Assembly (NCBI GenBank): GCA_029834535.1
Contig: JAQMWT010000544.1
Coordinates: forward strand, 62,001-126,000
Direction: 5' to 3'
From: Chrysophaeum taylorii
Lineage: Eukaryota; Sar; Pelagophyceae; Pelagomonadales; Pelagomonadaceae
DNA: 64,000 nt
Shown here: positions 20,532 through 33,172 of the stretch, piece after piece
Layout: each line of letters begins with the position of its first letter
Position numbering within the stretch: position 1 is the first letter of the stretch
Notes under the pieces: model-generated
Databases searched by the model: none
The model's input: the letters and a program-made list of their open reading frames with translations, nothing else
What the model was told of the DNA's origin: nothing
Made by a program: the position numbers and the translations under genes

Positions 20532-21044
20532 ATGAGCTGGGTGCCCTTCGACGGCGTGGGTCGCGTTCTTCGCCGGGATGGTGGTGGCGTCGTGCGGCGC
20601 GTCGTCAAGGAGGCCTCGGGGGTCGGGATGCTCGCGGTGCCGCAAAGGAACGACGAAGATCTGCTTTGGTTCAGCGGCCACGTGAGCCTCGATGGCACGC
20701 AGCTTCAAGTCCTTGGGATCGCCGAGGCCACTGGGAACACGTGCTGCGAGCCCGCGTACAGGGTTTCGCTGTGCGGAGGGGGGTGTTGCGCCGTCGCGCG
20801 GTGCCACCGGAGCGGTGGGAACGCGCTCTGTTTGGATCCGTTGGACGCCTGCGGGCTCTCCTTCGACGCGATGCGCGTCTTCTCGGGCCCTCCCGCTGCG
20901 ACCCTCGTCGAACACTTTTTCCCCAACCTCCACCGTCGCCTCGGGGAAGACGACGTCGTGGTGGTCTCGGGGACACTCCGGGTGGCGCAGCTAGTGTTTA
21001 CAACGAGTGGGGATGATTACGCGCCGGCGAGGACTTTCCAGTAG
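20532..21044 (+). CDS. Unknown protein, 170 residues
   Basis: A clean frame with host-like GC-rich codon use, from ATG 20532 to TAG 21042-21044. It is rich in Gly, Val and Cys (GGGCCAVARC, NTCCEP), with a predicted beta-rich pattern and no signal peptide or membrane span. No family is recognised. Its last 28 bp overlap the 3' end of the convergent HA-repeat gene, which supports both being real or one 3' end being mis-set. Confidence 0.5.
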   Translation: MSWVPFDGVGRVLRRDGGGVVRRVVKEASGVGMLAVPQRNDEDLLWFSGHVSLDGTQLQVLGIAEATGNTCCEPAYRVSLCGGGCCAVARCHRSGGNALCLDPLDACGLSFDAMRVFSGPPAATLVEHFFPNLHRRLGEDDVVVVSGTLRVAQLVFTTSGDDYAPARTFQ

Positions 21045-21754
21045 CGCGCGCCGCGCTCCTTCCGGGCAGGGCGGGCTTTGGAGGGGCCGAGGCGCACGGC
21101 CTTGGAAGGTTCGAGGCGGACGCCGAGGGACGCGAGCTTGGCGTAGTGGGCGGGGTCGAGGGTCTTCTGGAGGGCCTTCGCCCGTTGCGCCGCGAGCCAG
21201 GCCCCGAGGCGCACGTTTCCGCCCTCGACGTGGTCTCGCGGCACGCTGACGTGTCCCTCGCGGCGCTTATACGCGCCGAGCGCGGACGCGTGCTTATCAA
21301 ACTTGGCGTCTCTCCCGTGTTTCTTCGAGGCGAAAATCCCTCGCACCCCTACCTCGACGAGCCGTTCTCGTCGTTCCGAGGGAAGACGGTCGTTCCGCGC
21401 CTCTCGCCGCTGTTCGTGGAGCCACGCGCTCAACGGAATACCCTCCTCAGTGTGATTTTTCGGAACGTTCGCGTGGCCTTCTCTCGAAACAAAAGCTTTC
21501 AGCAGCCGGAATCCCTCCTCCCACCGACCCTCGAGCGGCTTGAAGGTCAAGCCCATCTCTTGGAGAGCTGTCTTCTTGTCGCTCGGAAGCCTGCCCGTGC
21601 GCCCGGCTTTCCTGATCGACGCGACCCACCGCCCCAATTCCCCGTCGCGCGGCACGTCCGAGTGCCCGTGAGTCGCGATGAACGCCTCGAGATGCGCCGA
21701 ATAAGCTGCGAACCGCTCCGTCCGGTTCTGGGCGCCGGCGGCGGCGTTGATCAT
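21017..21754 (-). CDS. Helicase-associated (HA) repeat protein
   Basis: 245 residues from ATG 21754; an earlier in-frame ATG at 21781 only adds a Trp run from a (CCA)n tract. Three HA units (PF03457 type) are seen, with the pattern 'L..F....GH..VP......LG.W...R....L......L...G': residues from AYSAHLEAFIATHGHSDVPRDGELGRWV, GFRLLKAFVSREGHANVPKNHTEEGIPLSAWL, and ALGAYKRREGHVSVPRDHVEGGNVRLGAWL. There is no helicase core. Stand-alone HA arrays are common in stramenopile algae; they are thought to bind nucleic acid. The 3' LTR of the mobile element starts 75 bp upstream. Confidence 0.8.
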   Translation of the reverse strand: MINAAAGAQNRTERFAAYSAHLEAFIATHGHSDVPRDGELGRWVASIRKAGRTGRLPSDKKTALQEMGLTFKPLEGRWEEGFRLLKAFVSREGHANVPKNHTEEGIPLSAWLHEQRREARNDRLPSERRERLVEVGVRGIFASKKHGRDAKFDKHASALGAYKRREGHVSVPRDHVEGGNVRLGAWLAAQRAKALQKTLDPAHYAKLASLGVRLEPSKAVRLGPSKARPARKERGARYWKVLAGA

Positions 21755-21829
21755 CACACACCACCACCACCACCACCACATAATTTCAACGGCTATCAGA
21801 TAACAACCGCGCTGACGATTCTTCCGTTC

Positions 21830-22196
21830 TATAGCGGCACAGAAAAACCACTCCCATCGGAGTCCCGACCCCAAAAGGTGACAGACAAAAAGGGGGTACT
21901 CGCCGACTCGTCCTAGACCTCACTGAACGAGGAAAACACGGACTCGGGACCGCCGGATATGCTCGCCACACACCTTGTGCTCACGCTCACCAAGCCTCTC
22001 AACAAGATGGATGGAGAGATGGTATATGATAGCAAGAAGAATCCTACAAGAATGCTGCAAGCAATACGCTTCTCACGTCGTCACGAGGGAGAGGTATGAT
22101 GATGTCATTAGGAAAGTAGGAAAAGGCGTCCCGTTGAACGGGTATCAAGCCTCGAGAAGGAAGGGTAAGCCTTAGCGGTCAGGAGTTGCCGCCACA
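21830..22196 (-). repeat. 3' LTR of the gypsy element
   Basis: 367 bp, matching 32073-32441 along its whole length, with about a dozen substitutions and several small indels. The outer end TATAGCGGCA and inner end TGCCGCCACA form an imperfect inverted terminal repeat (ideal TGTGGCGGCA...TGCCGCCACA). A short purine tract AGGGGAG (minus strand, 22204-22210) lies just inside and may be the polypurine tract. Confidence 0.9.
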
Positions 22197-22591
22197 TGAC
22201 GGACTCCCCTGGTCAGAATACGAGCTGCCCTCACCGAGTCCGGCGAGAATCACGAGCCTTGGCTGAATGAGCATCTCGGGAACGAATCTTCTTGTAGACA
22301 CGTTCACACGACAGGTGTGCGGGAACGCGGGCACTACGCAAAGTGAACTTAGGAATCAACACATCGATCTCATGCGGGGCGAAGTCGGTGACACAAGGAG
22401 TGGTACTGTTGTTGACCTTGGACTTGTCGGTGAAACTGCGACCGTCCACGTCCTTGTATCATTCCGGCTTAAGCTTGCGAGTAGAGAGATGTGAGGTAGG
22501 CTTGTAATAGGAAACCTTGTCATGGGGACCAAGATCAGCATAAAAATGCAGAGCGACTCGATCATTCACAAAATCATAGGACTCATAAACT

Positions 22592-24353
22592 TCAGCTACG
22601 TAAATCTATCTTCTTTCGCCAATCAGACCGTTTGTTATCTGGAATCCGAAAGACAACGAACTTACCGTGCTTGTAATCATCCCGAAAGGTCTCCTTGGGT
22701 TTGGGCACAGCTCGATCGACCACTGGAGAAACCATCGCAGGGGTGATCTGACTGACATGAACACAACGGCGTTCAGGAGGAGAATCAAGAGACTCAATCC
22801 TGCAAGTGACCGGAGACAAGCGTTCCAAAATAACGAATGGACCGCGCCATTCCGGTCGAAGCTTGTTCTGAAGAAAAAGGGATGTAGAGCAGAACATGTG
22901 AACCTTTTTCATACTCCACATCGACATGGCCCGCAATGTAAGCGAGACGTTGTTTACGAAGAGCCTTCTCGCGAGCTTCGTTCACCGTAGTAGCGGTATA
23001 GAACTTCCGCCTCTCGCGAGTCTCTGCCACAACATCGGAGCGAGCTTTCGGCAGGAGGCGGACATCAAGATCCATGATCGTATAATCGGTTGGCAATAGA
23101 GGCTGCCGGTCGAGACGAAGCATGAAAGGTGAGATCTGAGTTCCCGGAATAAACTTACGATTGTAGCAAAAAGCAATGTACTCCGCGAATTCGGGCCAGT
23201 CCGTGATCTTGCGGTTTTGAAGACACGCACGGAGGAAAGCCTTGATAAAGCGGTTGACCCTTTCCGCAGGATTAGCCTGAGCACGATGCGGAATCGTGGT
23301 AATATAACAAGCATTGAAGAGATGACAAAACTCTTCCATCAATTTGTTGACGAACTCTTTCCCATAGTCGGTACGAATCCTCTGAGGTAGATAACCAAAA
23401 ATATTCGCGACAAAAGACTCGAGGATTGACTCAGCAGTCTTATGGTGTAGTACGTCAAGAATTAAGAAATGAGAAAATGGATCAAAAAAGATGATCAGAT
23501 ATGTCTCGGGACCAGCACTGGGCAAAGGTCCGAACAAATCCATACAAAGGACGGCGTAATCACCATCATACACCGGTTGCTGAAGAAGACCTGCTCTCTT
23601 TGGTTCAGGCGTGCGAGCTTTCTTGCACACTATGCAACCAGCAATATAAGCACCCACCTCATTAGACATGTGGGGCCACCAAAAACGTTCAAGTGTCGAC
23701 TGCACTGTACTTTGACGACCCATGTGACCACCATTGAGAGGTGTGTCATGGTACAATCGGATGATGCGCGTCCGTAAAGTTCGGGGTGCGACTATCATCG
23801 GGTGCAAGTCAGGTGCGGCACGGTAGAGAACTCCTTTCACCACTTGATAGCGATAATTGGCTCCGTACCGACGAAGAGAATGGCCCTGAGCCATATGATA
23901 ACGAATGTCCTCGCAAGTGGCATCAGTGATCTGCTCTTTGGCTATCTCTTCCAAAGTCAAATTATCCGGGATCTTGTCGATGTACTCTTGGTGATCATCG
24001 GCATCACGGAAAATACTAGGTTGGGTCTGCAGACGTTGCTTCTGACGTTGTCTCGTAGCATGAGACGTGACCAATTGCATCGGATCATCGAGATCCTCTT
24101 CTTCTTCCTCCACAGGCAACTCGGTCGTAACAAACGACAGAATGACATGGCACCCATGTAAAGGTACTCCTTCATCATCGACAGGGCGAGGAAGTTCTTG
24201 GCATACTAGATACGCGTGGTTCAAGGGTTCACCAAACTCATCCGTCTCGATGACATGATCTATAGGATTGCGAGAGGGACAGTCAGGGATACTCATTCCC
24301 AGCGACTTCCCTGGTTTGTAACCCAATTCAGGATCGAAATTGGCGAGCCGCAT
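22592..24353 (-). pseudogene. Retrotransposon integrase with GPF/Y module, frameshifted
   Basis: The long frame 24353-22794 holds the zinc-binding H2C2 domain (HDTPLNGGHMG...CIVCKKA) and the DDE core: Asp in LCMDLFGPL, Asp in IRTDYGKEF and Glu in PAERVNRFI. The GPF/Y-type module (LRPEWRGPFVILERLSPVTCRIESL) continues in another frame at 22936-22592, so a small indel lies near 22870-22890. The N-terminal part of the long frame also covers the end of RNase H. Confidence 0.85.
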
Positions 24354-25246
24354 CGCCCCATCGAGCCAACTGCCCAGACGAGTGCTTCGCCTTTCGTAAA
24401 AACGTCAAGTTGCGATGATCCGTTTCAAGGATCGTCTTGTGACCTTCGATATAAGAGCGGAAATACTCAAGAGAAAGAATAACCGCCAGTAGCTCTAGCC
24501 GGCGAGGCTCATAGTTCCGCATCTCTTTCGGCACAGCTCGGCTCCAATACTCAACTACTCGTTCCTCTCGTGTCACCTTGCCGGTTTCGTCCTTTACTTC
24601 CACGACCTGAAAAAGATACGCGCCCAGACCATCCTTGGAAGCATCCGAGCGGATCTGAAAAGGAAGATCGTAGTAACTAACTAACTAACTTCAGACCTCT
24701 CCCGAGCATGGGAGCCAGGCCGGACCTTCAGGAGCCGGTACGGGATCTCAGAGCTAAATCACGCAGTTGGGGCAGAGACGAGGGGCGAGGAGTGTTGATG
24801 GCGGACCGCCACTGCACACGGTCTTGTGCGACGTCGTGCAAAAACGTCGCAGGCCGCGAACGTGTTGGTCCACGAACAATCGACCTGTCCGTCGCGTTCT
24901 GCTCAACCGCGCGAATCCCATCCCAGCGCGGGCTTTCCGGTTGCTAACCGGCCAGCCCAGGAGGCGAGCAGGCACCGTCTCACTCCGGGACGGCCGGGGC
25001 CGCCGCAGGGAGCAAGCGTATTTGGCGCCGTCCTCCATCGCAACCATATGGTTAGCGATCGCAGCCGCCACTAGCTAGAAGATCGTAGTCAGGATGATAA
25101 ACTCCGCGAGAGTCCACCAAAGCTTCGATGATCGTGTCCCATGCCTTCTGGCACTCAGGCGTCCACTCAAACTTAACGCCTTCAAGACAAAATCGCCTCA
25201 ACGACTCCACAATCTTCGAGAATAATTCTTCGCATATCGGCGGCAA
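24328..25246 (-). pseudogene. RNase H domain of the gypsy element, split by a nested insertion
   Basis: The downstream part (24674-24328) reads IRSDASKDGLGAYLFQV, then YWSRAVPKEMRNYEPRRLELLAVILSLEYFRSYIEGHK and TDHRNL, the usual gypsy RNase H with its Asp/Glu/Asp residues. The upstream part (25246-25078) reads EGVKFEWTPECQKAWDTIIEAL...YHPDYDL. Removing the 403-bp insert plus one copy of a 12-bp duplication joins them as HPDYDLPFQIRSDASKDG with no frame change. Confidence 0.85.
24675..25089 (-). mobile_element. Nested 403-bp non-autonomous insertion, SINE-like
   Basis: The insert proper is 24675-25077, flanked by perfect 12-bp direct repeats GAAGATCGTAGT (24663-24674 and 25078-25089). Read on the minus strand it starts TAGCTAGTGGCGGC, which resembles a pol III A box lacking one base, and ends with a (GTTA)n tail of about four units. 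It is GC-rich, unlike its host element. No coding motif is seen. The target duplication and tail are direct observations; the SINE identity is inference. Confidence 0.7.
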
Positions 25247-26222
25247 TAGTTGCTCATGCCGATGAAAGATCGAATCTGGGTCTTCGGGGACGTGTTCGGC
25301 AACGTACCGGGAATCGGCATCTGCTGCAACGCTTCTAACGTCTTGGGATTCGGCTTCAAGCCTTCCGGAGTCGAAATGTGTCCCAAAAACTCGATTTCAT
25401 CTTTGAGGAGGTGGAACTTCGAAGTTCGTCCACTATATCCTCGCTGCGCTAAATGGCACAGCACTTCAATCAAGACTTGCAAATGTCGATGGAGTTCATC
25501 CGATCCCATCATAATATCGTCGACAAACGCGACCAAGTCCTTATACATCCAGGTGGACAAATCGCTAGCCATCTGCTTACAGAAGAGAGCTCCTGCTGCT
25601 TTTACTCCCAGAGGCAAGCGCAAGAAACTATGGGTTCCAAGTGGACTAACCATCGTAACGGTGTCCTGAGCGGCGGCGTCCAAACGTAGGTTATGATAAC
25701 CCCATCGAATATCAATGCACGTCCGCCAACGGCGCATGGCAAGAAAAGCCAAAGCATCATCTTGACGAATATTCGGCCAACTGTCATTGACCAGCTGATC
25801 ATTGAGCTGACGCAAGTCAACTGCAGCACGAAAAGCATTCGACGTCCCGGCGTCTGCTCCCTTCTTAGGCAGCATCAGTACAGGGAATCCCCACGGAGAG
25901 TTCGCCGGTCGGATGACTCCATCGCGACACCACTCAGTGATCTGCTTTCTGAGACACTCGAGCTTTGCTGGCGTCAACCTATAAGGCGTCATCTTGATCG
26001 ATAAGGCGTCATCTTGATCGGTCGCGGGTTTGCGTCTTTAAATCGTAGAGAAACCGGTGGCGAGTCAACGGGTCTCATAATCGGATCAAAGAAGGCCCAC
26101 GCGTATTGCACGCAGTGGCTCAACATCATCTCCGCATCCTCATCCAGATGCGGGTTGTCGGGAATTCCCAGTTCTCGAACAACCTTTTCGACTTCTTCCT
26201 TCGTCGAAGTTACGACTTTCAT
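25198..26222 (-). pseudogene. Reverse transcriptase of the gypsy element, frameshifted
   Basis: The frame 25992-25198 holds RT motifs in order: VIRPANSPWGFPVLMLPKKG, AAVDLRQLNDQLVNDSWPNI, ROSS-like DIRWGYHNLRLD, FLRLPLGVKAAGALFCKQM, the catalytic FVDDIMMGSDE (FVDD in place of YVDD) and EFLGHISTPEGLKPNPKTLEAL. The N-terminal part is in another frame (26222-25989). The break is a perfect 20-bp tandem duplication, 25981-26000 and 26001-26020. Confidence 0.88.
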
Positions 26223-26739
26223 CGCATCATTGTCCTTGACGTGCTCCGGAGTCTGCAGTAACGGTACACCGTCCGCGTCGCGCGGCGCATCCTTTCATGG
26301 CACATCGAACTTTTCTTCGTATTTGAACCTCACCTCAGGGTGGCTCTTATTGATCTTTTCACCTTTGACGCGCACATTCGGTTCGCTCCTTACTTTCGGC
26401 TCCTGTTCAGGTTCAGGATCCGACGGAAACGTCCACTTTTTTTGATTGTCGGGGGGGGGCAGCAGAAAAAGCATGAGCCGTCCCCGGCGCATCTGTTGGA
26501 AGCGGAAGCATAGGGACTTCTGGCGGTACCCATTTAGTGGGATCCTGGAGATCATCTTTTGACACCCACTTAACGACACGAGTACGCGTATTTAACAGCG
26601 GAATCTGTACGTGACGAAGGGTGGTGTCGGTAATTCGCAAATACTGCTCAAAGGATCGATCTGTCGGGCTCAACGCGGTCGGCAGGATTTCGCCACCTTC
26701 GGCGGAAACCTCTGGTCACGGAGTTGTGCAGATCGACGG

Positions 26740-27965
26740 CTAAAATCGCAAGAGTATCTGGAGGGACGCCAGATGCTAAGTGCTTAAACGGATCTGTCTT
26801 GGACAGGCCAGTCCAATCATATGGTCCAGCGGCATCGTGAGCAGCTCTGCCGTCATCTAGATAGTCAAAGGCTGAGTGTCCGAGCGGTGCGGTCCTAAGC
26901 GAAGAGGAACTCGCGTAACGGTGTAAGCCGTATCTGTTGCGTCTCGGGGCGAACCTAGATTATTCAGCTGGAGCAGGTGGCGTTCATCTGCGTGACCTAA
27001 TGCTGCAGCAAATTTCTGTTGCGTTTTCGCGCAGGTCTTCGGAGCCTCTTGCAGGTGCAGTGGGTGACTGGAGACCGACAACCGCACGCGAGAGCTCATC
27101 AACGTGGGCGTGATATCACGAAAATTGACGACGTACACGTAAGGGTGTAAGCGCGCTATATAAGAAATAATGGACGCCTCCTGTTCAATCAGCCACATCA
27201 TAAGCCAGCTATTTTGCACAGCTTCATCGTCCAATTAGTGGCCGTAACTCCCCCGCCAACATCTCTGGATGTCAAGTTGCAGGGTGCTGAATGAACGCAG
27301 GGTGGAGACGCTATGCACATCGACGATGACCATTCCGCTTCTGGCAAATAAGCCTTGATCAATCGGAGGGTCGACTCACATCGCCCGCAAAGCGCGTGCT
27401 GAACCACAGGTATCTTCGGAAAATTCTTCTGATGAATCTTGTTGGCAGCTGTTGAAGAGTCAAGAGCAAGGACAACCCGAAACGACGTCCCGCACAACTC
27501 ATTCGCTCGTTGCAGTCCTAAAGTACTGCCTCCGGCGCCGCTAAAGAGCATCACAACCTTGCGATACGTGACCGGCACCCAGTGGACTTTTTCAAACCTT
27601 CGGCGAATCTCGTCTTCTGTAACTTCTCGGCATTTCTTTTCCTCCTCGTCGGTTCGTCGGTCGAAATCGTCGTTACCGAGCGATTCTTGACGAGAATTCT
27701 TATTCTTATCGGCGGAAGGAGACGCCTTCTGCATCGAGCACAAAAGCATCGGTTCGGGAGCCGCATCGCCTTGAGTCAGATGGCTTGCGACCGAAACAGT
27801 GAACGATAGGTTAGCCTTGTCAGATTCGGCTTCACCATCCTTCGTTAAATCGTCGACCGTTTCAACATTCAGCTCGTCATCAAAACGAACAATATCGCCC
27901 AAAGCGAGAACTTCACCTTGAGTAATCACGGTCGTCGGCACATCCTGGGTAGAGGAGATCGCCAC
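26740..27965 (-). pseudogene. C5 cytosine DNA methyltransferase domain captured by the retrotransposon
   Basis: Motifs read in the canonical order from right to left. Motif I is VVMLFSGAGGSTLGLQRA (about 27551-27500). It is followed by VVLALDSSTAANKIHQKNFP, and motif IV SPPC with the catalytic Cys (27308-27297). A frameshift near 27200 leads to WLIEQE, probably motif VI (normally ENV). Then come SSRVRL, motif VIII-like (27096-27079), RDATDTAYTVT, motif IX-like (26946-26914), and, after further breaks, KTDPFKHLASGVPPDTLA, motif X-like (near 26760-26800). The target recognition part between VIII and IX is short. It lies between protease and RT on the same strand, inside the LTRs. Motifs I and IV are strong; the others are by-eye matches. 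As it stands it cannot encode one full protein. Confidence 0.75.
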
Positions 27966-28459
27966 TCGAGCTGCGCGAACTTGTCATGATCCTCAGGAGA
28001 AGAACACATTCCATCAACTACCCCGAGTTGCTCGTATCCAGAAGACGTAGCAACGAAAACTTGCCCGGTTTCCATGGGCTCTGAAAGAGCGACTGGCACG
28101 CAGTAAGTGCGCCCAGGCTCGACCTTCATCGTGCGCGCAGCATAGGCTATCACTTCATAGGCATCGCTGTTCGAACTTTGAGAAGGCGTAACTGTAGGGA
28201 CTCCCCAACAAGCCGTCGAAGCTCCCGCTCGTTTCGGCGGTGGACGCTGGAGGTCTTCAATCTTGCACAAGCGAGCGTAAACGCGGCTCTCAACTGTGCT
28301 CAGGCTCTTTTGCATCGCATGGTGCTGTTGCCCATAAACCTGAACTACCACGGGGTTGCGCTCATCATAAGTTGTTCTGAACGTCAAAATCGGAGAATCG
28401 ACTCGTCGATCCTGCACCTTTAACTTCTTGCGCCCATAAGCGACTTGTGTGCGGAGAAA

Positions 28460-29186
28460 CGCAATGCGATTTCGCGGGTAGTCCACTATGGCTCCCAACA
28501 CCCGAATATCGCGCGCTCCAAGCAGAAATAGGTGATTAGTATCGGCCACAATGGCAACCACTGGAACGGCCACGTCGTTCGCGAGCGCAATTCGCAATGC
28601 GACCTATTTGTGGATAGTCGTCTTATTCAATCCTGACCCGTACAGGGTGCGCTCGTCGAATGGGGGATCGATCGCCTCGGTCAAGGATTATATTATCCTT
28701 TGTCAGTTTTTCGACCATCCTACGACAAATATAGGAGACATCAGCCATTCCATCCACGCCTAAAGTCGTTGCGAACTTCGGCCCGTCTCGTCGTCTGTAA
28801 CTACGACCAACTATGAACGTAAGTGTACCAGGGTCCAGACAACCGATGGTGATGAGGTCTTGCTCGATCTTTTCCCCATCGCTCGGCGAAAGTGCAGTAT
28901 GATGACATCGTATCTCCGGTTTCGAATCGCCCGGCATCTGCATCGTCGACGCTGCCATATCTGGCGTCCCACATCTTGCCTCTGAATCTATATTGGCGCT
29001 CGCCGCTTCGGCTGCTTCCTCATTCCCCAGTTTCGCTGGCAACAAATTCTGACACTTCTCAATCGGAGGCACATATACTTCCTCCTTTATTTCCTCTGAC
29101 AATTTTCGTTTCTCGTCCATCAAATCGGACATTCCCGTCCACTTCTCCTCCATCGGCGCCGCTGTGGTCTGCTCTGCTGCGACCAA
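28460..29186 (-). pseudogene. Retropepsin-like protease region
   Basis: The frame 29186-28623 ends with TTLGVDGMADVSYICRRMVEKL, which aligns with the 'LVDTGASVSYI' start of retropepsins. The catalytic Asp is kept, but Thr-Gly is replaced by Gly-Met. The matching C-terminal strand FLLGARDIRVLGAIVDYPRNRIAF is in another frame (28597-27926), as expected for 'iLG.D.l...gaivDy..n.i'. The split and altered active site suggest decay. The stretch down to 27966 has no recognised domain. Confidence 0.6.
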
Positions 29187-29500
29187 ATCTGTATCGGCTA
29201 AAACATCGGCTAAAACAGTTTCGGGGGGGGGGCGTAGGAAAAGAAGACGTCGTCCCCGCCGTCAACTCAAAAGTTCTAACATCATTATCATTGTGAACTG
29301 CCCTGCAAGACATGCACATTGAAGAATGGGGGACACTGGAACCTGCGGCATGGGTTCGTCGGTCTCCGAGTCTGAGTCTTCCCAGTAGTGCCGAGAATCC
29401 AAAGTTGCATCTGATATTGCTTCCACATACGATGTAGAAGGCCGCCGAACGATCCGAGCGTTGGTGGTATTTTGCTCCTGTTGCAAGCGATGGCTGCTCG

Positions 29501-31556
29501 TCACAGCGGCATCGGCAACATCATCGGAGACTCGGGCGGGGTGCGCCGTCGGGTAAAAGACAACTCCCGACGATGGCCGCGCTTCGCGTAGAGATTTGAA
29601 CGCAAAAGTTGTGCTCGAATGTCCCGAACTATCCTGATATCGGCCTCCGTCATATTCGTCATCGCGCCGTCGATGACGTCTGCGCCGGCGCGAAAATTGC
29701 GACTAGAGCTCCGGCTATGGCGGCGACGGCGGGGGCTCGGGCTTGATGTAGGACTATTGGCCTTTTGATCAAGGCTCTTACTTCGGTGTCGGCGCGACGA
29801 TCGTCTAGAAGGTGATTGTCCGTCTCGCTGTCTTGTAGAAGACGACGTGCTATCTTTGATGCCTCTGACCTCGCTCACCATGGTCGCCATTGTGGTTTCC
29901 AAGCTCGGCGAGGGCCGTTTGTATTTCATTAGTAGGTTCCGATCCGCGCGTGGCGTGCACATTAGATGCATCGTCACGGTTCTCCCAATCGGAACGCGAT
30001 ATGGGTTGTTGCTTTTTGTATTTCCGAATGCGCTTCCACATCGCACAGTGATAAACGGTCCGGATCGCGGTTACAAACCACGCGATTTTTTTCCGTGTTC
30101 ATCTTCAAATCATGGGTGGACCAGAAGTATCCGCACTTTTTGCACGTCTTCTGGCACCACCAAAAAGGATCTCTCTCGCAAGATAGATCAGCGGAACCGC
30201 ATTCCCAGACGGTTTATCCGCATCTTGCTTAGCTTGTTGATCGGAAGTCATAGCTCGACCTCCCCTCCCTCGCGGCGGTTTATTTGGTTTCGGATTGGAG
30301 GGGCCTTGGTCCTTCTCCTCCTCCATCAACTTCCGAAAGTCGTTCTCGAGTCGCGTAATAAGCGCCACCATCGACGACTCAAAAGTCACGTATCTATCCG
30401 AGTGTCCGCTCCTCGTAGTGTCCGCACACGGGTCCGTAAATCCTTGGACGCCAAACCACACTGACAAGCTGGTCGATGATATCAGACGTCATCCATCGTG
30501 CGGCTGGACTCGGTACAAAAGGCTAAAGCCTCATTCTATAATTTGGTACAATATACGTTTGTACGTGCCACAAACTCCCTTCCGCAGCTTATCGAGCAGC
30601 TCCTGCTACGTACGTGCTCGGAGGTCGGCAAGTCGATCTAAAATAATCCAGAATCTTATCACAGTAAGTCTTGTTGAGACGATGGATGCGCCGAATCGAG
30701 GCTCCATACTCTTCGTCGCGAGCATCCAATTTCAAATAAAATGACGGACCGTGCGGTAGCTCATCGCAGAGCTCCTCGTAGTATTTCCGCAAATGCTCCT
30801 CAAAAATTGGTGCAACGGTATCGCGCAAATGCACCGGTAACGTAATTTCTCGACCGAGTAAAGTGGTCATCTGCTAACGTATGCATCACCGCTGCAGAAT
30901 CCAGATTTTGAATTACCGTTGATCTCGGCCGTCGATGACGAGTTTGAAGTTGTCAGCCTTCAAACTGGAAGTGGGGCGGCGAGATCGGCTATAGTTGGCC
31001 TTCTCGAAGGCGTCCGCAAACGTCTGCGATAATCCCCGTGATAGTCCCCGTAAAAATTTCGTACCTTCATCCTCTCAGTTTCCGCCCTACCCTCAGTCTC
31101 CGTATCGTCTCGGGGCGGAGGTCCATCCCCCGTTTCAGTGCTCCTTTCCGGTTCGGGTCGACTCACGGGTTGTTCGCGGCTACTCTCACGACGTGTACGT
31201 TCGGCTAACAGTTCATCTCGCTCACGACGAAATCGTTCAACCTCCTCACGTAGGGTCCTCGTTGTTTCGCTCTCGTGCTGCAACTCGTCGTCGTTCAGCA
31301 TATTGACTTCTCGTCGTCGAGCCGCTTCTTCTTTCGCTTCAGCCATTTCACGGGCAAATCGCTCAGCTAATCGTTCATTTTCGCGACGTCTCCGCTCGAG
31401 ATCGTCACGAAGTCGACTTCGGGTTACGGATCCGCGCTCAATCGTAACGCGCTCGCCACGGTCCGGGGTCGTGTCGTTGGGCTCAACGGCGAAAAAATTA
31501 TCTGGAGGCACGTCAGGGGGCACGTCAGCAGCGTCGACTGCCTCGGCCTCACGCAA
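29501..31556 (-). pseudogene. Gag region of the gypsy element, fragmented
   Basis: Read on the minus strand: 31556-30960 codes a charged coiled coil (RLRDDLERRRRENERLAERFAREMAEAKEEAARR); 30870-30589 codes a helical segment (DTVAPIFEEHLRKYYEELCDEL) that may be capsid; 30467-30105 continues it. Near 30170-30130 a Cys-rich WCQKTCKKCGYFWSTHD could be a zinc-binding motif but does not fit the CCHC knuckle. 30046-29501 is Ser/Arg/Lys-rich, like a nucleocapsid. The frames do not join without indels. Confidence 0.55.
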
Positions 31557-32051
31557 TTCACCTTCCTCGCGGCCTATATCTCAGGGGCGGCGGGAAGCAC
31601 TGGAGGAGATTCGTCCTCGCGCACGTCTGCGTCCGTATCCGTATTGTATCGACGTCGATGAGGAATCTCGAAACAAGTCCGGATTCGATCACTCGAAGTA
31701 ATGCACGTTGATCACAACAACAACGCTATCTGTCGCCGTAAAAACAGCACTCACGGAATTCTGATCCGCTGGCAATCCAAAAATGCCCGCGGGTAGCGAT
31801 CCCACTCGTTAACAGCTTCCGCCGTTCTCGCCATACCAAAATCAATTCCCGGGTGAATGCGCTTCCAACTTGCACGCGTGTTCCTCGTCTCTCGGGACGC
31901 ACGAACAAAACAAAGTCCGCGCATATTCATTCTCAACGCAAACCGGTCCACTGGAACTCCGCGTGCTTGATCAGGGCAAATCCGGACCACGTATATACAA
32001 CAATACGTACGGCGGCACTCGAGTGTTCGTCGGCGACCGACATAGTCGCAC

Positions 32052-32070
32052 GATCTCGTGTCCTCCACCA
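32052..32070 (-). promoter_or_regulatory. Candidate primer binding site
   Basis: Two bases inside the 5' LTR, the minus strand reads TGGTGGAGGACACGAGATC. The TGG start is what a site complementary to a tRNA CCA end should have. I could not assign the tRNA. Confidence 0.4.
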
Positions 32071-32072
32071 CG

Positions 32073-32441
32073 TATGGCGGCACAGAAAAAACCACTCCCG
32101 ACCCCAAAAGGTGACAGACAAAAAGGGGGTACTCGCCGACTCGTCCTCGACCTCTCACTGAACGAGGAAAACGTGACGGACTCGGGGTCGTCGAATATGC
32201 TCGCCACACACCTTGTGCCCACGCACACCAAGCCTCTCAACAACAAGATGGATGGAGAGATGGTATATGATAGCATTGCTACAAGAAGAATGCTGCAAGC
32301 AATACGCTTCTCACGACGAGAGGGAGAGGTATGATGATGATGTCATTAGGAAAGTAGTAGGAAAAGGCGTCCCGTTGAACGGGTATCAAGCCTCACAAAG
32401 GAAGGGTAAGCCTTAGCGGTCAGGAGTTGCCTGCCGCCACA
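32073..32441 (-). repeat. 5' LTR of the gypsy element
   Basis: 369 bp, direct copy of 21830-22196. Termini are TATGGCGGCA and TGCCGCCACA. Several differences from the partner LTR are short duplications or losses (for example ATGATGATG against ATGATG, AGTAGTAGG against AGTAGG), which suggests replication slippage. It ends 29 bp before the ELO gene's ATG. Confidence 0.9.
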
Positions 32442-32470
32442 TGTTGTGGCAAAAAAAAAAAAATTAAAAG

Positions 32471-33172
32471 ATGATGATGGATCCGACGATTCCGACGATA
32501 TTGTACGTGGTGTTCGCGATCGTCGCGCCACGAGTAAGGTGGACGCCGATGATGAGGTGGGGACCGGCAATCCTAGCTGCGCACAACGGATTTTTGAGCG
32601 TCGCGAGCGCTGCGATGTTCGGGTTGGTTGTTGTCGAGGCCTGGGGGCGCGCTCAAGTGGAGGGATGGGGTTTCGTGCTGTGCGAGCGCTTCGACCCACC
32701 GAGATCCTACGCCCTCGAGGCGTACTACATCTCAAAATACTACGAACTCCTGGACACAGTCTTGGCGTTTGCGTGTAGAGGAAAACCACCGCGACGTTAT
32801 TTCACGCACTGCTACCACCACGCCCTCGTGATGTATACGGGGTATTTTTGCGCGCAGGGACAGACACTGCGATACCCCGGCATGGCCACCAACACCTTCG
32901 TCCACATCTTCATGTACTACTACTACGCGCGCGCCGCGATTGGGTTGCGGTCGACGTGGAAAATCTGGGTCACGCGCGTCCAGGTCCTCCAGTTTGCCAC
33001 GACCTACGTCAGCCTGCTCCTCGCGCTCCGGAAGACCCCGAACCTCTTTTTTGATGGAACCAAGTGTTCCGGCCGCTTCCAGCTCGTCTTCACCTGCGCC
33101 TTCAGCGCTACCTTGCTCCACCTCTTCCTCAAGATCCTCGACGACGACGACCCGAAGAAAAAACAAGTCTAA
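32471..33172 (+). CDS. ELO-family very-long-chain fatty acid elongase (3-ketoacyl-CoA synthase)
   Basis: 233 residues from the first of three consecutive ATGs. ELO signatures are YYISKYYELLDT (86-96), the histidine box HCYHH (113-117) and NTFVHIFMYYYY (141-152), within a multi-span membrane protein. The C-terminal Lys-rich DDDDPKKKQV fits an ER retrieval signal. It condenses malonyl-CoA with acyl-CoA in the ER. The protein is short for the family (usually about 270-300) and its first span starts almost at residue 1. The retrotransposon LTR ends 29 bp upstream, so the original 5' end or promoter may have been displaced. The stop overlaps the stop of the convergent sulfotransferase. Confidence 0.9.
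   Translation: MMMDPTIPTILYVVFAIVAPRVRWTPMMRWGPAILAAHNGFLSVASAAMFGLVVVEAWGRAQVEGWGFVLCERFDPPRSYALEAYYISKYYELLDTVLAFACRGKPPRRYFTHCYHHALVMYTGYFCAQGQTLRYPGMATNTFVHIFMYYYYARAAIGLRSTWKIWVTRVQVLQFATTYVSLLLALRKTPNLFFDGTKCSGRFQLVFTCAFSATLLHLFLKILDDDDPKKKQV

Follow-up and report, generated by a model that had tools for sequence, protein, structure and literature searches.

We analysed a stretch of 64,000 nucleotides (hereafter the window) from the alga Chrysophaeum taylorii, which corresponds to G000:C544:62001-126000 in an assembly of 70.8 Mb and 697 contigs. On its minus strand, positions 21829-32442 are occupied by a Ty3/gypsy retrotransposon bounded by direct long terminal repeats (LTRs), and inside this element, between the protease and the reverse transcriptase (RT), lies a broken C5-cytosine DNA methyltransferase (DNMT). 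On balance, we consider the element to be a dead copy of an LTR family whose DNMT is kept by selection and may methylate the family's own complementary DNA (cDNA). The matched LTRs and the place of the DNMT had both been claimed by a first-pass annotation, and both hold: the LTRs are identical at 334 of 349 ungapped columns (95.7%; 391 columns in all, 42 of them gapped), RT and integrase are recognized by Pfam on the same strand, and the domain falls at 26714-27566, the protease being recognized by eye only. The direct LTRs and the order RT - RNase H - integrase, both present, give the assignment to gypsy. The features are the following, L039 and L040 being two other genomic copies:

32072..32442, minus strand: 5' LTR (aligned with the other LTR, 334 of 349 ungapped columns identical)
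29504..31556, minus strand: Gag-like region (separate open frames 30963-31556, 30108-30467 and 29504-30046)
28440..28800 (ends approximate), minus strand: protease-like stretch (by-eye strings VDGMADVSYI and LGARDIRVLGAIVDYP)
26714..27566, minus strand: C5-cytosine methyltransferase domain, broken (tblastn with the intact L040 domain, 86-94% identity per piece)
27566-27204, minus strand: methyltransferase piece with motifs I-IV (PF00145, 20.4 bits)
27201-26821, minus strand: methyltransferase piece with motifs VI-IX, holding one stop
26821-26714, minus strand: methyltransferase piece with motif X
25216..25998, minus strand: reverse transcriptase (PF00078, 3.6e-14; 93% identical to the RT in the L039 frame)
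24286..25222, minus strand: RNase H region, interrupted by an insert (tblastn pieces 25222-25079 and 24672-24286)
23286..23786, minus strand: integrase, zinc-binding and core parts (Pfam matches in window:22797-24353)
21829..22197, minus strand: 3' LTR (LTR alignment)

The reading frame of the methyltransferase of the window changes near 27203 and again near 26821, with a stop near 26857, and this copy is therefore dead; positions 27567-27965, annotated earlier together with the domain, are the linker preceding it. The Gag-like frames matched no family in a Pfam scan and look, by eye, like the first part of the 1745-residue frame of L040. We assign the protease by eye and from its position, Pfam giving no protease match in the window frames or in the L039 frame. 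RNase H was assigned through PF17917 and PF17919, which fall on the corresponding residues of L039, and the integrase through PF17921 (9.1e-17) and PF00665 (1.1e-7; 32.5 bits, just below the cut-off of 32.6).

The genome-wide counts support the view that the methyltransferase domain belongs to the element family and not to a single copy. Used as a query, the window piece finds at least 149 methyltransferase matches in the genome, in groups at 79-95% and near 70% identity; the matched stretch is stop-free in 121 of the 149 listed (hand count) and in 120 of the 145 RT matches listed, and gypsy open frames reach 3063 and 3067 residues. Among these 145 RT matches, 57 have a same-strand DNMT match at 1596-1970 nt (median 1941). 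Reading upstream of 20 copies sampled from the other 88 gave a DNMT match at the expected place in 18 (a piece of at least 100 residues in 17 and of 34 residues in one) and none at that place in two. The search for other copies that had been proposed at the outset thus did not find a family devoid of the domain: 75 of the 77 RT copies examined have it, whole or in part, where it is expected. The contig pairs G000:C10/C297 and C25/C521 show the same matches at near-equal places and are perhaps haplotypes kept apart in the assembly, so that the copy counts may be inflated by duplicates.

In intact frames the domain has 284 residues. The motif-like strings LFSGAGG, SPPC, EQE, RVR, LTMP and PPDT occur in the window in the correct order, in agreement with the motif order given by the first-pass annotation; we take LFSGAGG to be motif I, D36 motif II, SPPC motif IV, EQE motif VI, RVR motif VIII, LTMP motif IX and VVPPD motif X. 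The target recognition stretch (TRD) is indeed short, of about 60 residues. Comparison with the Pfam family PF00145 succeeded in part: two intact copies reach 26.1 and 27.6 bits, above the cut-off of 22, over profile positions 2-52 only, while the window piece alone (20.4 bits) and the domain inside the whole L039 frame (18.6 bits) stay below it. The profile-profile comparison by hhalign covers nearly the whole domain. Against a reference set of 10 C5-methyltransferases in 11 rows (8 from plasmids or phages, one of them two-domain, and 2 of the host), the gypsy profile matched with a probability of 97.6 over 256 columns, from residue 3 to 277 and from motif I to X, with motifs VIII-X following IV-VI in the usual order; motifs VI-X are present in intact copies and are covered by the match. 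When the foreign relatives described below were removed from the gypsy profile, the probability was 96.8 (residues 3-271), and the controls gave 0.2 for the reversed profile and at most 0.4 for 30 column shuffles. Matches to single reference sequences were partial, with probabilities from 0.1 to 85.7, including 20.1 for the host Dnmt2 alone and 0.1 for the host DNMT5-like protein alone. Among solved structures, the best single-sequence match was Dnmt2 (E 0.034, residues 3-62 only) and the profile search gave E 0.6; DNA methyltransferase families of PHROGs were matched at 1e-6 to 6.5e-8, in the motif I-III part only.

Conservation was counted on L009-L063 and the window, which gave 27 full-length ungapped copies, 25 of them distinct; dropping 3 with stops left 22. 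In these, 197 of the 284 columns are invariant. Of the 25 motif positions counted, 19 show no variation, and each of the other 6 differs in a single copy. None of the 22 copies departs from the rest at 11 key residues belonging to motifs I, II, IV and VIII; F8, S9, G10 and G12 of the S-adenosylmethionine (SAM) loop, D36, P89, C90, R160 and R162 are invariant, and the Glu of motif VI is retained in 21. From the profile match and these residues, together with the selection described next, the domain of the gypsy element is very probably a C5-methyltransferase under selection.

The ratio of nonsynonymous to synonymous substitution rates (dN/dS) was computed pairwise by the Nei-Gojobori method, on copies free of stops and gaps; the window copy falls outside this set, and the restriction lowers the ratios. 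In this test across copies, proposed at the outset, the medians of dN/dS are 0.104-0.282 within subfamilies and 0.058 between them: 0.104 for 28 pairs with dS of 0.005-0.03, then 0.282 (41 pairs), 0.193 (53) and 0.123 (23), and finally 0.058 for 85 pairs with dS above 1, these bins covering 230 of the 231 pairs. For L039 versus L040, where the ratios are rough because synonymous sites are near or beyond saturation in most stretches, the DNMT (identity 0.82, dN 0.114, dN/dS 0.061) can be set beside the RT (0.95, 0.033 and 0.018), the RNase H (0.87, 0.088 and 0.070), the integrase (0.83, 0.105 and 0.031) and the linkers (identity 0.62 and 0.71, dN/dS 0.144 and 0.181). Roughly, then, the constraint on the DNMT appears similar to that on RNase H, weaker than that on RT and integrase and stronger than that on the linkers. 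These comparisons show that selection maintains the C5-methyltransferase domain between the protease and the RT of Gag-Pol.

Relatives of the domain were found through the polyprotein. The domain alone gave no match at E 0.01 among 5.8 billion proteins, scans of viral contigs and of prokaryote contigs returned no relatives, and tblastn against phages matched only weakly, twice, at E 0.02 and 0.1, in the part with motifs I-IV. Residues 1000-1800 of the polyprotein found six proteins, the best two being P0001 (MMETSP) and P0002 (taxid of Chrysocystis, Pelagophyceae), whose RTs are 45-46% identical to that of the gypsy family. Both are gypsy elements with a DNMT-like domain in the same position as here. 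The relative in Chrysocystis hints that the host is a pelagophyte or something akin, and 84 matches to chlorophyll-binding proteins show it to be photosynthetic. P0001 has a DNMT-like domain with 26% identity over 248 residues, which keeps the Cys (PDC for PPC), EQ and RxR and, unlike the family studied here, is without the motif I loop; P0002 keeps the C-terminal third of the domain, its frame beginning inside it.

A second carrier came from the search of the genome with PF00145, which matched 57 places. The eight best are L001, L002 and six copies, L003-L008, of a different methyltransferase with TLPC and ENV. L001 (G000:C634), Dnmt2-like, and L002 (G000:C621), DNMT5-like, are probable host methyltransferase genes; for L002 the only Pfam match is a weak RING, and DNMT5-like is our own reading. 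Beyond these two genes, 29 of the 55 places overlap a listed copia match. At L063:2797-8652 (G000:C96), a single frame of 1952 residues encodes a Ty1/copia element with a DNMT between protease (DGGAS, by eye) and integrase: PF00145 scores 32.1 bits at 349-475, the integrase core is weak (PF00665, 17.2 bits at 1016-1110, below the cut-off of 32.6) and PF07727 scores 133.2 bits at 1686-1933, the integrase preceding RVT_2 in the Ty1/copia order. With L004 as query, 68 candidate places in the genome were scored and yielded 79 matches. Using 75 of these 79 matches and 55 of the 57 PF00145 places, and an allowed distance of 1.2-7 kb upstream of RVT_2, we found a listed DNMT match for 31 of the 58 best near-full RVT_2 copies (of at least 150) and none for 27; in 21 of the 31 the match lies 2.4-3.0 kb upstream. 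The copia domain has a median dN/dS of 0.133 (0.088-0.327 in 21 pairs of seven copies). Of five divergent copia copies, with an RT identity of 42-44%, the two whose upstream sequence was read both have the domain (E 2.6e-17 and 3.9e-9), and one of them retains the Cys (in AEC) and the Glu (in EEM); in this range of RT identity, L072 (G000:C560) and L073 (G000:C214) have a methyltransferase-like domain in the same place. The foreign copia polyprotein P0007 (3226 residues, European Nucleotide Archive) has a methyltransferase-like domain before its integrase, matching at 25%, with SAPC and a motif VIII-like string visible by eye. Because the 42-44% copies and P0007 carry such a domain, the copia DNMT line is probably older than the present subfamilies.

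The tree had 17 rows: three gypsy, three copia and 11 for reference (the host Dnmt2-like and DNMT5-like proteins, and 9 domains taken from eight proteins of bacteria or phages), a sampling without DNMT1, DNMT3, CMT, DNMT6 and the published retroelement DNMTs. Gypsy rows form one clade (100/99), apart from host Dnmt2 and DNMT5, and copia rows another (99/97); the two are not sisters, and the backbone is open. The separate branch proposed earlier for the gypsy domain fits this clade. The gypsy profile matched the copia profile with a probability of 0.4 only, and this profile-profile comparison gave no direct support for a recent common origin of the two. They are likely to be independent captures, and only likely because a joint clade was not rejected (p-AU 0.327). 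Somewhat more probably than otherwise, then, the unrelated Ty3/gypsy and Ty1/copia families each carry an old, selected DNMT directly after the protease, which would make it a recurrent module of Pol in protist LTR elements and no rare accident, with copia as a new carrier; searches of open-licence papers found no copia element with a DNMT.

Since the SAM loop, the catalytic PC, the Glu of motif VI and RxR are kept, the gypsy domain is likely to be catalytic. Its main target may be, we suggest tentatively, the element's own cDNA. Being part of Pol, the domain would be carried in the particle and would methylate the double-stranded cDNA before or at integration; the new copy would then arrive in the genome already marked, and might be hidden from host sensing of bare DNA, or kept quiet and tolerated. 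Such self-methylation is the leading reading and is in line with the CG de novo methylation described for published retrotransposon DNMTs (PMC5890265). CpG depletion was not strong in gypsy and there was some lowering in copia, in a comparison that holds no DNMT-less repeats as control: the observed/expected ratio is 1.23 in the window element, against 1.33 for the window outside it; four gypsy-bearing stretches have 1.16-1.22, 22 copies of the DNMT have 1.10 and the copia stretch has 1.01.

Several observations weigh against self-methylation by an active, selected enzyme. The ratio, so little lowered in gypsy, gives no strong sign of CG methylation followed by deamination. The EQE in place of ENV, pointed out by the first-pass annotation, is real, the Glu being kept in nearly all copies and EQ occurring in P0001 too. 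Two fold predictions have low confidence (pLDDT 35-36), P0001 has lost its motif I loop within an open frame of 2018 residues, and the exclusion of broken copies lowers dN/dS as said above.

An active domain could have another main target: the chromatin of the host around sites of integration, elements that compete with this one, or DNA viruses that infect the cell. The same selection and conserved motifs would be expected, the weak CpG depletion of the elements fits, and an opinion paper proposes antiviral roles for transposon methylases (PMC6338049); we nevertheless find an outside target unlikely, for no sequence evidence points to any of the three and a domain of Pol is expected to travel with the particle. 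Such travel is established for RT and integrase. Still less probable is a former methyltransferase that has lost catalysis and now serves as a structural or DNA-binding part of the polyprotein: the missing loop of P0001 and the altered motif VI would suit it, but C90, D36, F8, S9, G10, G12, R160 and R162 do not vary in any of the 22 copies. Action on RNA in the manner of Dnmt2, with the particle's genomic RNA or its tRNA primer as substrate, is improbable; it would agree with the little CpG depletion of DNA and with Dnmt2 as the best solved structure, but that similarity is confined to motifs I-III and not significant, and the host Dnmt2 profile probability is the low one given above. Finally, a one-off fragment in a single copy, or chance motifs, as the broken window copy and its score below the Pfam cut-off might suggest, is refuted: the at least 149 genomic matches rule out a one-off capture, the profile match against reversed and shuffled controls rules out chance motifs, and the fixed offset to RT and selection count against it as well.

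Transposons are usually fought by means of cytosine methylation, and element families that keep their own methyltransferase under selection raise the question why self-methylation pays. With about 200 or more copies of two families in a genome of 70.8 Mb, beside host Dnmt2-like and DNMT5-like genes, this question is directly testable. The domain resembles bacterial and phage C5-cytosine methyltransferases in the motif order I-X of the profile match, and differs from them by an identity of 18-21% (profile alignments), the short TRD and EQE for ENV. KnitGypsy-Dnmt3 of Klebsormidium nitens is a gypsy element with Dnmt3 in Pol (PMC5890265), and the family described here shares with it the Ty3/gypsy type, the cytosine DNMT encoded within the Pol frame, a high number of copies and purifying selection. 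KnitGypsy-Dnmt3 is of the Dnmt3 class and has a DIRS-like repeat arrangement, whereas the gypsy element of C. taylorii, a different alga, has plain direct LTRs and a DNMT to which we could give no class from a tree of the above sampling. SymbioLINE-Dnmt and SymbioDIRS-Dnmt3 of Symbiodinium (PMC5890265) are similar in their hundreds of intronless retrotransposon DNMT copies and in more than one element class per genome; the carriers there are LINE and DIRS, here gypsy and copia, and Copia of Symbiodinium is stated to be without DNMT (PMC5890265). The opinion paper PMC6338049 cites the Klebsormidium and Symbiodinium cases, and neither the microeukaryote DNMT survey PMC9998398 nor the stramenopile review PMC3145265 describes such an element in the text available. 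Gypsy, DIRS and LINE carriers are thus already known, and rare, and copia would widen the range.

Three minor observations concern the surroundings of the domain. An insert of about 400 bp within the RNase H part, at window 24673-25078, is flanked by a repeat some 12 bp long (GAAGATCGTAGT), shows a run of AACT at one of its ends, and is read as a nested insertion. A helicase-associated-domain frame (PF03457, 6.2e-47) at window 21017-21874 extends into the end of the 3' LTR. On the other side, an ELO fatty-acid elongase gene (PF01151, 1.2e-33) at window 32471-33172 starts about 30 bases past the LTR end.
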